In this document: positions 58,232 to 61,050 of the stretch, in pieces | Position numbering within the stretch: the first letter of the stretch is position 1 | Layout of the letters: every line of letters starts with the position of its first letter | Source of the DNA: Microbacterium sp. H1-D42 | GTDB lineage: Bacteria > Actinomycetota > Actinomycetes > Actinomycetales > Microbacteriaceae | DNA length: 64,000 bases | Reading direction: 5' to 3' | NCBI RefSeq assembly: GCF_022637555.1 | Contig: NZ_CP093342.1 | Span: 2,418,001 to 2,482,000 of the forward strand | Notes under the pieces: generated by a model | The model's input: the letters and a program-made list of their open reading frames with translations, nothing else | What the model was told of the DNA's origin: nothing | Databases searched by the model: none | Made by a program: the position numbers and the translations under genes

Positions 58232-58675
58232 ATGACCACACACCACAGCATCCCCTCCAGCATGGACAGGTCCGGCTCGAATCAGCACTCAGCAGTGCAC
58301 GCGGATCGTCTCACGGTCGGCGCGGCCGTCACACTTCTCGTCATCAGCGTCCTGCACACTGCGGCCTTCGCATTTCACCAGTGGTGGGGTCCGTGGCTCG
58401 CAGGCCCCCTCCGCACGGAGCAGCTGCCGATGGAGGCCGTCGCGCAGTTCTGGGGCCTCCCCGGGGGATTCGTCGTGCCGGGTGTGCTGCTGGCGCTTCT
58501 GATTCTGCAGACGGGCCGACGCGGCCACACGATGCCGGCCTACGTCGGCGTCATCCTCGGCGCCTGGGCGCTGACCTGCGTGTGGATCGTCGGGCCGAGT
58601 GGATTCCTGCTGCTGCTCGTCCCCGCCGTGCTGCTGCTGGTCGCACGAGGGCGGGCACGCCGACGCGCGCCGTGA
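58232..58675 (+). CDS. Hypothetical four-helix membrane protein
   Basis: A 147-residue membrane protein with a polar N-terminus (about 25 residues) and four helices. AVAQFWGLPGGFVVPGVLLA is its most distinctive part and recalls the DUF6463-type proteins, though I am not certain of the family. No catalytic motif. The ATG at 58232 is chosen; the frame opens earlier. Confidence 0.72.
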   Translation: MTTHHSIPSSMDRSGSNQHSAVHADRLTVGAAVTLLVISVLHTAAFAFHQWWGPWLAGPLRTEQLPMEAVAQFWGLPGGFVVPGVLLALLILQTGRRGHTMPAYVGVILGAWALTCVWIVGPSGFLLLLVPAVLLLVARGRARRRAP

Positions 58676-58693: not shown

Positions 58694-59194
58694 TCAGCCC
58701 CCGATCTTCTCGCCAGCGGCATCCACCACCCACCAGACATCCTTCACACCCTGACCGTTGGTGTCGCCGGCCTTGGTGTCGCCGGCGAAGAGGTACAGCG
58801 GCCAGCCGTTCAGCGTGACCTGCATCTTGCCGTCGGCGGTCTTGATGGTGCCGAGCTCGCCCGTGACGCCGTCACCCTTGGGCGTGTCGCCCGTGGCGAT
58901 GATCGGCGGCCAGTTCTGCAGGCAGGCGCCGGTGCAGGCGCTGGTGTCCGCGCCCTGCGTGTCGGTGTCGAACATGTAGGCCGTCATGCCGTCGCCGGTG
59001 ACGACGATCTCACCGAGGTCGGTGTCGGCGAGCTTGAGCTCGGATGCCGAGGTGCTGCCACCGCCATCGCCGTACATGCCGCCGCCATCGCTGCTCGAAG
59101 GGGCCTCCGTTCCGGAATCCCCGGCTCCTCCCGAGCCGCAGCCGGTGAGGATCAAGCCGAGGGCGAGTGCGGCAACCGCGAGTGTCCTGCGCAT
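58694..59194 (-). CDS. Lipoprotein with Yx(FWY)xxD repeats (COG4315 type)
   Basis: A 166-residue secreted lipoprotein. The signal peptide ends LILTGC (lipid Cys about 19), followed by a Gly/Ser/Asp linker. The mature domain has the COG4315 signature twice: AYMFDTD and LYLFAGD, with SACTGACLQNWPPI between, where two Cys may pair. Members are suspected of metal or redox-linked envelope roles. GAAAGGA is seven bases before the ATG. An ECF-type promoter identical in form to that of the neighbouring sigma gene lies 50-80 bp upstream, so it should belong to that regulon. Confidence 0.92.
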   Translation of the reverse strand: MRRTLAVAALALGLILTGCGSGGAGDSGTEAPSSSDGGGMYGDGGGSTSASELKLADTDLGEIVVTGDGMTAYMFDTDTQGADTSACTGACLQNWPPIIATGDTPKGDGVTGELGTIKTADGKMQVTLNGWPLYLFAGDTKAGDTNGQGVKDVWWVVDAAGEKIGG

Positions 59195-59246: not shown

Positions 59247-59274
59247 GACACGAGACGGGTGCGCCCAGGGTTCA
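59247..59274 (-). promoter_or_regulatory. ECF-sigma promoter of the lipoprotein gene
   Basis: On the minus strand TGAACC, 16 bases and CGTGTC. The expected transcription start is about 45 nt before the lipoprotein ATG. The same hexamers and spacing occur before the sigma gene and the DUF2231-like gene. Confidence 0.85.
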
Positions 59275-59321
59275 TCCGAGCCACCCAGGGTTCATCCGAC
59301 TCGCCCAGAGTTCATCCGAGT
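59262..59321. repeat. Three tandem 20-bp repeats at the lipoprotein promoter
   Basis: Units CGCCCAGGGTTCATCCGAGC, CACCCAGGGTTCATCCGACT and CGCCCAGAGTTCATCCGAGT follow each other without a gap. The first contains the -35 TGAACC (reverse strand); the third overlaps the end of the anti-sigma gene. Confidence 0.92.
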
Positions 59322-59995
59322 TCTGTGCGCAGCAGCACTTCACCCGCTGCAGTGCGGATCTCCACTGCGCGGATGTCGTCGATCGCGAGTGCGGTCCCGG
59401 CCGAGAGTCGCGCCGTGCGGCCGGGCTCGACCCGCCATGTCGACAGGTCGGACTCGGCCCCATCCGCGCCGACGACCGCGAGAACGTAGGTCCACCCCTC
59501 GTCGGGAGCATCCGCCCCGTAGTCGCAGGCCATGTCGATGCGCGTGCCCCATGCCAACGAGGTCAGTTCGACTTCAGCATCCACCTGCACGGGAACGACC
59601 TGCTCGAGCGCCACCGACACGGCGGGTCGGGGCGACAGCGCGACGACTCCGACCGGCACGGCGATCGCGATCGCCGCTGCGATGCCGACGGCCGCCCACG
59701 TGCGCCGACGCCGCGTGCGACGACGGGCCCGCGCGATGTCGAGCAGCTTCACCCCGGCCGCAGCGGTGTCGTCCGCATCAATGTCGCCGGCGCCGGATGC
59801 CACGGCATCGGCATTCAGACGGGACAGCAGCCCGACCGCCGGCGTGAGTTCGGCGACCGCCGCGCGACACCGCGCGCAGCCGGCGAGATGTGCCTCGTAC
59901 TGCGCCCGATCGGATGCTGACAGCGCCCCCAGCGCATACGCGGCATCCCAGGTCGCGAACCGCTCGTGCTGGTCGTTCACACGATCACTGCTCAC
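59312..59995 (-). CDS. Anti-sigma factor with zinc-finger-like N-terminus
   Basis: A 227-residue inner-membrane protein. The cytosolic anti-sigma domain has the ZAS-type HLAGCARCRAAV (Hx3Cx2C, about 36-43). A single membrane helix covers about 98-122. The outer C-terminal domain (about 125-227) is the RskA type. It holds the ECF sigma factor inactive until an envelope signal destroys it. Its start overlaps the sigma stop as GTGA. Confidence 0.93.
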   Translation of the reverse strand: MSSDRVNDQHERFATWDAAYALGALSASDRAQYEAHLAGCARCRAAVAELTPAVGLLSRLNADAVASGAGDIDADDTAAAGVKLLDIARARRRTRRRRTWAAVGIAAAIAIAVPVGVVALSPRPAVSVALEQVVPVQVDAEVELTSLAWGTRIDMACDYGADAPDEGWTYVLAVVGADGAESDLSTWRVEPGRTARLSAGTALAIDDIRAVEIRTAAGEVLLRTELG

Positions 59996-60498
59996 CTGGT
60001 CACCCCTCTCTCCTGCAGCGCCAGCCGCAGGGCCCTCAGTCCGTAGTGCATCCGCGACTTGACCGTGCCGCCGGGAATGCCGAGTTCTTCCGCGATCTCA
60101 TCCACGCTGCGACCCCGATAGTGCGCCGCGACGATGACCGCCCGGTGTTCGTCGCTGATGGTGGCGAGCGCGTCTGAGATCAGCATCTGATCGAACAGCC
60201 GATCCGTCTGATCATCGACCGCCCGCTCCGGCAGCTCGGCCACCGGATTTTCGTGCCGGCGCCTGGCGCTGCGCGCCTCATCGATGACGATGTGCCTGGC
60301 GACCGTGAAGAACCAGGCGCGGGTCGTGGAGGCATCCTGCTCGAGGATCCGCGGGGTGCGCCATGCGCGCAGCAGCGTCTCCTGCACGACATCGTCGGCC
60401 GATCCGCGATCACCGGTCAAGCTGACGACGTAGCGCCGAATGGGCGCGGCGTGCACGTCATACAGCGCGGCGAGTCGTTCATCGTCGTCAGCGGTCAC
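59992..60498 (-). CDS. ECF sigma factor, SigK-like
   Basis: A 168-residue extracytoplasmic-function sigma factor. Region 2 has ADDVVQETLLRAWRTPRI and FFTVARHIVIDEAR; region 4 has YRGRSVDEIAEELGIPGGTV. GTG at 60498 is chosen because GGAGG stands five bases before it and the protein then has normal length. In-frame starts at 60543 and beyond would place coding sequence over its own promoter. It should transcribe its own operon, the nearby lipoprotein and the divergent DUF2231-like gene. Confidence 0.94.
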   Translation of the reverse strand: MTADDDERLAALYDVHAAPIRRYVVSLTGDRGSADDVVQETLLRAWRTPRILEQDASTTRAWFFTVARHIVIDEARSARRRHENPVAELPERAVDDQTDRLFDQMLISDALATISDEHRAVIVAAHYRGRSVDEIAEELGIPGGTVKSRMHYGLRALRLALQERGVTR

Positions 60499-60514
60499 AT
60501 CAGCCTCCGTAGGA

Positions 60515-60542
60515 GACACGAGATCCGGATGCCCGCGGTTCA
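60515..60542 (-). promoter_or_regulatory. Autoregulatory ECF promoter of the sigma operon
   Basis: TGAACC, 16 bases, CGTGTC on the minus strand. The predicted mRNA begins about 10 nt before the GTG and just includes the GGAGG site. Confidence 0.85.
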
Positions 60543-60545
60543 TTC

Positions 60546-60573
60546 TGAACCGAAGAAGGCTCCGGATCGTTTC
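60546..60573 (+). promoter_or_regulatory. ECF promoter of the DUF2231-like gene
   Basis: TGAACC, 16 bases, CGTTTC, then six bases to the ATG, giving a leaderless mRNA. Its -35 is back to back with that of the sigma operon, forming the palindrome CGGTTCATTCTGAACCG. Confidence 0.85.
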
Positions 60574-60579
60574 TCCAGT

Positions 60580-61050
60580 ATGAACCTGTTCGACTTCGAG
60601 TTGGCCGGCCTGCCTCTGCATCCGCTGCTTGTGCACGCGACTGTCGTGCTCACACCACTGACCGCACTCGCCCTTGCCGTCGCCGCGCTCTGGCCCGCGG
60701 CCCGTCGGCGGATGGGCCTCGCGCTGCCGATCGCCGCTCTGATCGTGGCGGTGCTCGTGCCGGTGACGATCCTCGCCGGCGAATCGCTGGCCGATCTCGT
60801 CGGCCGCACGCCCGCGGTGAGCCGCCACGAATCGCTCGGCATCATGCTGCTGCCCTGGGCAGTCGCGCTGCTGCCGGCGTCGGTCGTGGTGTGGTGGATG
60901 GGGCGCCCATCGCCCGCCGCGTCGCGCCGACCGAGGTGGGTGTCAGTGACGGTCGCGGCGATCGCCGTGGCCGTGGCGGTCGTCACGCTCGTGCTCGTGG
61001 TGCTGACCGGGGATGCCGGCGCGCGGACCGTCTGGGAGGGGACGGTCTGA
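60580..61050 (+). CDS. DUF2231-like membrane protein
   Basis: A 156-residue membrane protein with four helices. LAGLPLHPLLVHATVVLTPL carries the His-rich start (HPLLVH) typical of DUF2231, where the His residues may bind heme or a metal. Divergent from the ECF sigma operon and sharing its promoter type, it is a probable direct target. Function unknown. Confidence 0.85.
   Translation: MNLFDFELAGLPLHPLLVHATVVLTPLTALALAVAALWPAARRRMGLALPIAALIVAVLVPVTILAGESLADLVGRTPAVSRHESLGIMLLPWAVALLPASVVVWWMGRPSPAASRRPRWVSVTVAAIAVAVAVVTLVLVVLTGDAGARTVWEGTV

Follow-up and report, generated by a model that had tools for sequence, protein, structure and literature searches.

A stretch of 64,000 nucleotides from Microbacterium sp. 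H1-D42 (contig NZ_CP093342.1, positions 2,418,001 to 2,482,000; hereafter the window, to which coordinates refer) encodes an extracytoplasmic function (ECF) sigma factor and its anti-sigma factor, which very probably form an autoregulated switch of the SigL/RslA type with a local regulon of three transcription units. These units are the sigma/anti-sigma operon itself, the gene of a PF03640 lipoprotein and the divergent gene of a DUF2231 membrane protein (Table 1). Each is preceded by TGAACC-N16-CGT(G/T)TC, which, judging from its conservation, is a promoter-like element of this sigma clade that has been kept before all three. The initial annotation of this DNA had proposed a self-contained ECF regulon made up of these three transcription units; its coordinates, strands, hexamers and 16-nucleotide (nt) spacer are all reproduced here, and the comparative evidence supports the proposal.

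The motif is rare by chance and in the genome at large. Only 0.06 matches are expected in the window, and three or more were reached in none of 100 dinucleotide shuffles. The genome, searched as one contig of 3.66 Mb, contains four exact matches, of which the three at the locus are the only ones outside open reading frames (ORFs); the fourth (C1:3472096) lies inside an ORF of 482 amino acids (aa). When up to one mismatch to TGAACC-N16-CGTGTC is allowed there are 25 matches, 22 of which lie elsewhere than at the locus (the fourth exact match and 21 one-mismatch sites), and 19 of these 22 fall within ORFs. Because the matches elsewhere mostly fall within ORFs, the regulon in this genome looks local.

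Three one-mismatch sites lie outside ORFs. Two of them (L321 and L337; labels beginning with L and G denote the loci and genomes of this analysis) each precede an ORF, and the third (L333) has no ORF behind it. The L321 site (G000:C1:414227-414254), TGAACC-N16-CGTGCC, lies just past the end of one ORF, with an ORF of 176 aa starting about 80 nt further on, and is possibly a distant member of the regulon or a chance match.

Table 1. Predicted features of the sigL locus in the window
Feature	Coordinates	Strand	Details
PF03640 (Yx(FWY)xxD) lipoprotein gene	58694-59194	minus	two repeats, paired Cys; 112.3 bits, cut-off 24.4
Lipoprotein gene promoter, TGAACC-N16-CGTGTC	59247-59274	minus	predicted +1 ~59240
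20-bp unit repeated 2.8 times	59264-59320	minus	TGAAC in each copy
RslA-like membrane anti-sigma factor gene	59312-59995	minus	HxxxCxxC zinc motif; zf-HC2 and RslA 3hug_B
ECF sigma factor gene, SigL family	59992-60498	minus	GTG start; NF007227 and 6dv9
Sigma/anti-sigma operon promoter, TGAACC-N16-CGTGTC	60515-60542	minus	predicted +1 ~60508
Palindrome CGGTTCATTCTGAACCG	60536-60552	both	two back-to-back -35 elements
DUF2231 gene promoter, divergent, TGAACC-N16-CGTTTC	60546-60573	plus	predicted +1 60580, the A of the ATG
DUF2231 (PF09990) four-helix membrane protein gene	60580-61050	plus	40.3 bits, cut-off 26.4

By sequence comparison the sigma factor and the anti-sigma factor belong to the SigL and RslA families. 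The sigma factor passes the cut-off of model NF007227 (PRK09645; 220.9 bits against 202), whose name we take to be SigL, and its best solved relative is SigL of Mycobacterium tuberculosis (6dv9, E 3.7e-49), as against E 1.2e-13 for the best solved sigma factor other than SigL. The best solved relative of the anti-sigma factor is RslA (3hug_B, E 5e-17, residues 8-69); it possesses a zf-HC2 domain, the HxxxCxxC motif and one hydrophobic transmembrane (TM)-like region, and all 65 genus loci and all 80 listed named loci (two sets that share some genomes) have HxxxCxxC in their anti-sigma region. In the SigK, SigE, SigC and SigM models listed, the sigma factor scores below the cut-offs. The SigK/RskA system is similar in pairing an ECF sigma factor with a membrane anti-sigma factor, and RskA_N scores 16.3 bits on the window anti-sigma factor; this is below its cut-off of 27, as are the 80.7 bits of the SigK model below 226.

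The regulator and its -10 element are therefore already known in kind from the SigL/RslA family. The -35 element of M. tuberculosis SigL is reportedly TGAACC, which is said to go back to Hahn in 2005 and Dainese in 2006. A relative in a metagenome-assembled genome (MAG) of the Mycobacteriaceae (L258) bears TGAACC and CGTGGT at -50 of its sigma gene. The promoter of M. tuberculosis sigL carries the same CGTGTC as the window, and passages of the same paper give the -10 element as T-12 G-11 N C/A-9 A-8 G-7 with C-14 G-13 preferred before it, one of several P-sigL scaffold strands beginning CGTGTCAG (PMC6372665).

When 149 genomes were searched with the window sigma factor, 65 loci in 63 genomes (the window included) had E values of at most 1.1e-48 and were examined. 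TGAAC-N17/18-CGT is present within 165 nt upstream of the sigma gene in all 65; measured against the full motif, 30 are exact and 27, 7 and 1 have one, two and three mismatches. Thus 57 of 65 sigma upstream regions lie within one mismatch, compared with 4 of 1300 windows drawn at random from these loci, all four having one mismatch (a further 50 have two). The site also precedes the lipoprotein gene in 20 of 20 genus loci (11 exact) and the DUF2231 gene in 20 of 21. The initial annotation had named a lack of conservation upstream of orthologous genes as what would count against it, and conservation was found at all three units. Negative controls lacked it: among unlinked DUF2231 paralogues in sigL genomes (L179-L187, 43-49% identical) it stands directly upstream in none of nine, and it is lacking upstream of the lipoprotein homologue in both sigL-less genomes that have one (L152, L153). 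Among three other second copies, one is without a site and two have a degenerate, distant one. Second sigma/anti-sigma pairs, 53-55% identical to those of the window, occur at L100 (G116) and L101 (G066), with TGAAC(C/T)-N16-CGTCTC at -118 and -155, and possibly represent paralogous regulons.

Beyond the genus, named genomes (partly the same as those of the genus set) were scanned with the sigma alignment, giving at least 80 loci. Of the 80 listed, 66 have the core site no more than 200 nt upstream of the sigma gene. It precedes the lipoprotein gene in 29 of 31 rows and the DUF2231 gene in 20 of 20, in contrast to 12 of 496 other ORFs in the same loci. One DUF2231 row (L224) was dropped from the DUF2231 count, lying within 100 nt of another match; a tally including it was 21 of 22. 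The L224 gene has no site of its own because it directly follows a Rieske gene. The full three-unit layout is found in Agromyces (L202, L211), Streptomyces avicenniae (L218), Prauserella (L246), a Brevibacterium MAG (L236) and a Demequinaceae MAG (L232), and this spread indicates that the layout is either old or widely transferred. In Nocardia (L235, L240, L248, L255, L256) and Rhodococcus (L250), TGAACC-N16-CGT also stands before an ORF kilobases downstream of the sigma gene. This ORF, which presumably resembles a thiamine-pyrophosphate enzyme, is a possible SigL target in these two genera.

The initial annotation had explained the palindrome CGGTTCATTCTGAACCG as two back-to-back -35 elements, and it does consist of two TGAACC hexamers, 3 bp apart. 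Alternatively, TGAACC/GGTTCA might be operators of a DNA-binding regulator, arranged as a dyad at the divergent promoters, and not ECF -35 elements at all. The two copies in the window do make a perfect-looking palindrome, and 13 of the 20 genus loci that have both promoters likewise show a gap of only 1-3 bp; across all 20, however, the gap ranges between 1 and 16 bp, so the palindrome is not a fixed operator. Furthermore, the lipoprotein site is single, the distance to CGT is constant in every copy, and TGAAC is paired with CGT at 17-18 nt in all 65 sigma sites, which leaves the operator explanation barely credible. If the hexamers are -35 elements, as we prefer, their separation of only 3 bp means that two polymerases probably exclude each other at the divergent promoters, which would not both be occupied at once.

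Several observations weigh against the autoregulated SigL-type regulon as set out above. One DUF2231 gene in the genus (L090) is present without the site, and 14 of the 80 listed named loci have no site within 200 nt of the sigma gene: six of these have it before yceI, the gene preceding sigma, one is cut by a contig end, six are from Nocardia and one is from Lentzea. The DUF2231 promoter has T at -11, where M. tuberculosis SigL demands G most strictly, and His54 and Asp60 of that protein, which read positions -12/-11, correspond in the alignment to Thr48 and Gln54 of the window sigma factor. Because of these two differences the specificity of the window sigma factor, as predicted from its residues, is not identical to that of M. 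tuberculosis SigL. The His54/Asp60 pair is a specificity trait and not a criterion of the SigL family. The base at -11 among 66 genus sigma sites is G in 53, T in 9 and C in 4, and window-type sigma factors perhaps read this position more loosely.

A point against a purely redox role of the targets (discussed below) is that many Microbacterium bear the same promoter at an unlinked CDP-alcohol phosphatidyltransferase cassette (L339, L340, L342, L343; L349-L369). In addition to the transferase (PF01066, 47.1 bits) this cassette comprises a small membrane protein that no Pfam model matches and, divergently oriented, a dehydrogenase-like gene (ADH_zinc_N being its best Pfam model, 30.4 bits against a cut-off of 31.8). 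Of 149 genomes, 30 have the transferase gene. Where sigL is also present, the site occurs on the coding strand in 18 of 21 and divergently in 19 of 21; of the three coding-strand misses, G049 and G101 are rows matching only the later part of the gene (the sites of G049 were seen separately) and G084 is a partial match at 47% identity. In the transferase genomes without sigL, neither the conserved-place site nor the divergent site is found in any of nine, stray regular-expression matches occurring elsewhere in two. G019, with a transferase 58% identical and no close sigL (best 40% identical), has no site. This independent locus speaks for the assignment of the promoter to the SigL-type sigma factor. 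Among the 63 sigL genomes, 20 possess the lipoprotein and 21 the transferase, and none possesses both (P 3.8e-5, relatedness ignored); 22 possess neither, which likewise counts against a purely redox role. The regulon had been described as self-contained; this stands for the present genome and fails for the family, since in other Microbacterium with sigL the promoter also occurs at a locus not linked to the sigma gene. The presence of this promoter at a lipid-type cassette therefore indicates, by comparison of genomes, a general envelope switch with exchangeable cargo.

Other ECF sigma factors are usual in all these genomes, yet the transferase site follows the presence of the sigL orthologue (18/21 as against 0/9 at its conserved place). 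It is therefore very unlikely that the promoters are read mainly by another sigma factor of the SigE, SigH or RpoE-like kind, with SigL only a target. The similarity of SigL, SigE and SigH sites described in passages of PMC4821874 would favour such a reading.

The distances between promoters and start codons, which the initial annotation had called sensible, proved so for the sigma and lipoprotein genes, where 16 and 52 nt separate the -10 hexamer from the start codon. The DUF2231 ATG lies only 6 nt past its -10 hexamer, a distance that implies a leaderless gene. This spacing is conserved: the ATG follows CGTNNN by 6 nt in 18 of 20 genus sites and by 7 nt in the other two, and lies 6-7 nt behind the -10 element in 19 of 20 listed named loci (the exception being L252), or 39 of 40 sites overall, some genomes being in both sets. 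Passages of PMC6372665 report a best spacer of 6 nt, the first nucleotide lying 2 nt upstream of the duplex DNA; by our own count from that value the predicted +1 is the seventh nucleotide after CGTGTC, and the DUF2231 transcript would therefore start on the A of the ATG. Thus the DUF2231 messenger RNA (mRNA) is probably leaderless, and its gene would offer a clean natural model for leaderless stress mRNA. The same count predicts leaders of about 10 nt for the sigma gene, little beyond the Shine-Dalgarno sequence, and of about 46 nt for the lipoprotein gene.

Upstream of the lipoprotein gene the repeated unit places three copies of TGAAC 20 bp apart, at 59314, 59294 and 59274 on the minus strand; the first is the stop codon of the anti-sigma gene and the last is the lipoprotein -35 element. 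These copies might be a functional array, with extra -35 elements raising promoter strength, and their exact spacing of 20 bp, about two helical turns, would fit such a role. A -10 partner exists for the last copy alone, and in the stretch scanned TGAAC is single in 17 of 20 loci, L082 and the window having three copies and L122 two. Moreover, at 16 of the 20 genus loci the stop codon of the anti-sigma gene itself supplies the TGA of the lipoprotein -35 element; the window is among the four exceptions. An array is thus unlikely, and a local duplication, read from the sequence, explains the repeated unit of the window.

The functions of the two targets can be approached through their conserved residues and their replacements. 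The initial annotation had pointed to possible redox or metal residues, a hint that gains support here. In the lipoprotein, an alignment of 38 relatives shows no variation at Cys87, Cys91, Trp95 and Pro96, and the structure model is confident over residues 51-166. The SCO0930 family of Streptomyces is related to it over the PF03640 part; the score against the corresponding model (NF040526) is 115.3 bits with a cut-off of 275, so that the window protein is a relative and not a member. SCO0930 is named in the regulon of SigU, an ECF sigma factor, in passages of PMC6295645, and SigU differs from the SigL type of the window. The DUF2231 protein has four TM-like stretches, modelled as four long helices (pLDDT 90.5), and its His14, His19 and His83 are invariant in 45 of 45 proteins. 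Basic residues average 3.0 and 4.2 in loops 1 and 3, as against 0.2-1.1 elsewhere; because of this, and by the positive-inside rule, both termini and the three histidines are predicted to face outward.

The slot divergent from the sigma gene is occupied by other proteins, with the site, in related bacteria: a Rieske protein in Cryobacterium, Leifsonia and a related MAG (seven loci) and an FMN_bind protein at two other loci. A YceI gene with the site heads the sigma operon in Cellulomonas, Promicromonospora and Myceligenerans (six loci). Pfam confirmed Rieske in all three proteins tested of the seven and, with a single protein tested for each, also FMN_bind and YceI. At L224, a Cryobacterium MAG, the Rieske gene is followed directly by a DUF2231 gene that is truncated where the contig ends and whose product is 46% identical to that of the window and scores 20.9 bits in Pfam, below the cut-off of 26.4. 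A phylum-wide DUF2231 search of 149 genomes gave matches in 64. The long DUF2231 frames have a C-terminal Rieske-like motif by eye in 14 of 17 cases, and all ten sent to Pfam contain DUF2231 and Rieske in one ORF. These fusions of the Actinomycetota share the PF09990 membrane domain with the window protein, which is without the Rieske domain. Among the papers searched, none names both DUF2231 and Rieske, and none was found that gives a function for the PF03640 lipoprotein or DUF2231 families.

Because DUF2231 and Rieske swap places, adjoin and are fused, we tentatively propose that the two targets may be an envelope redox pair, in which the outer-face histidine cluster of DUF2231 would partner an extracytoplasmic redox protein, a part that elsewhere falls to a Rieske or FMN-binding protein. 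Electron transfer at the window's own pair would be an extension by analogy from the DUF2231-Rieske associations. Several points tell against such a pair. Comparison of the lipoprotein model with the Protein Data Bank (PDB) matched no informative fold, and the DUF2231 model compared with the PDB by Foldseek gave only generic helical bundles, none with E below 0.001. It was the motif that led to the Rieske, FMN and YceI queries, which makes their 15 of 15 with the site partly circular. Given the lipid-type cassette elsewhere in the genus, a redox role would extend no further than the cassette of this window. A serious alternative, somewhat short of an even chance, is that the targets are envelope lipid or surface maintenance proteins and that Rieske and FMN-binding proteins were added only in particular lineages. 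Such a role would accord with the phosphatidyltransferase and dehydrogenase-like gene of the alternative cassette, and with the polyketide-lipid genes to which passages of PMC9469519 tie mycobacterial SigL; it is less easily reconciled with the DUF2231-Rieske fusions, the Rieske-DUF2231 pair at L224 and the invariant Cys pair.

The proposed operation of the switch would be as follows. In resting cells the membrane-anchored anti-sigma factor would hold the sigma factor through its HxxxCxxC zinc domain, until oxidation or another envelope signal frees it; the freed sigma factor, with RNA polymerase, would then transcribe the three units, as mRNAs with the short Shine-Dalgarno leader (sigma), the longer leader (lipoprotein) and none (DUF2231) predicted above. 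For RslA itself, oxidation releases zinc and sigma affinity falls 8-fold, according to passages of PMC2877774. Mycobacterial SigL targets, mpt53 and polyketide genes in passages of PMC9469519, differ from the PF03640 lipoprotein and DUF2231 found here, and as far as our literature searches reach these targets are new for a SigL-type regulator.

It is conceivable, if rather doubtful, that SigL-type sigma factors throughout the Actinomycetota control an exchangeable cassette for electron transfer in the envelope. DUF2231 would serve as the partner in the membrane, on the quinone or haem side, and proteins of the PF03640, Rieske, FMN-binding and YceI families would be interchangeable, recruited by acquiring TGAAC-N17-CGT (in the lipoprotein case by a promoter grown on the anti-sigma stop codon), with other Microbacterium swapping this cargo for a lipid-synthesis cassette. 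The SigL family literature that we found is mycobacterial; the promoter is now readable in dozens of other actinobacteria, and conserved target genes can therefore be named. Rieske replacement at the slot, together with the DUF2231-Rieske fusions, suggests a first testable role for DUF2231, and the swapping of entire sets of targets while the promoter stays the same provides a compact case of regulon rewiring.

The neighbourhood of the locus varies. Where the lipoprotein is absent, the gene after the anti-sigma gene often encodes a MOSC-domain protein, as at L120 (2736-3281, minus strand; PF03473, 124 bits), with similar ORFs at L131, L068 and L111; an ORF on the other side of these MOSC-containing loci is presumably IspH-like. 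In the window, the ORF at 58232-58675 on the plus strand, convergent with the lipoprotein gene, has four TM-like stretches and resembles DUF6463 (24.9 bits, cut-off 26); among the 65 genus loci, a tblastn match to its protein near the regulon occurs in the window only.

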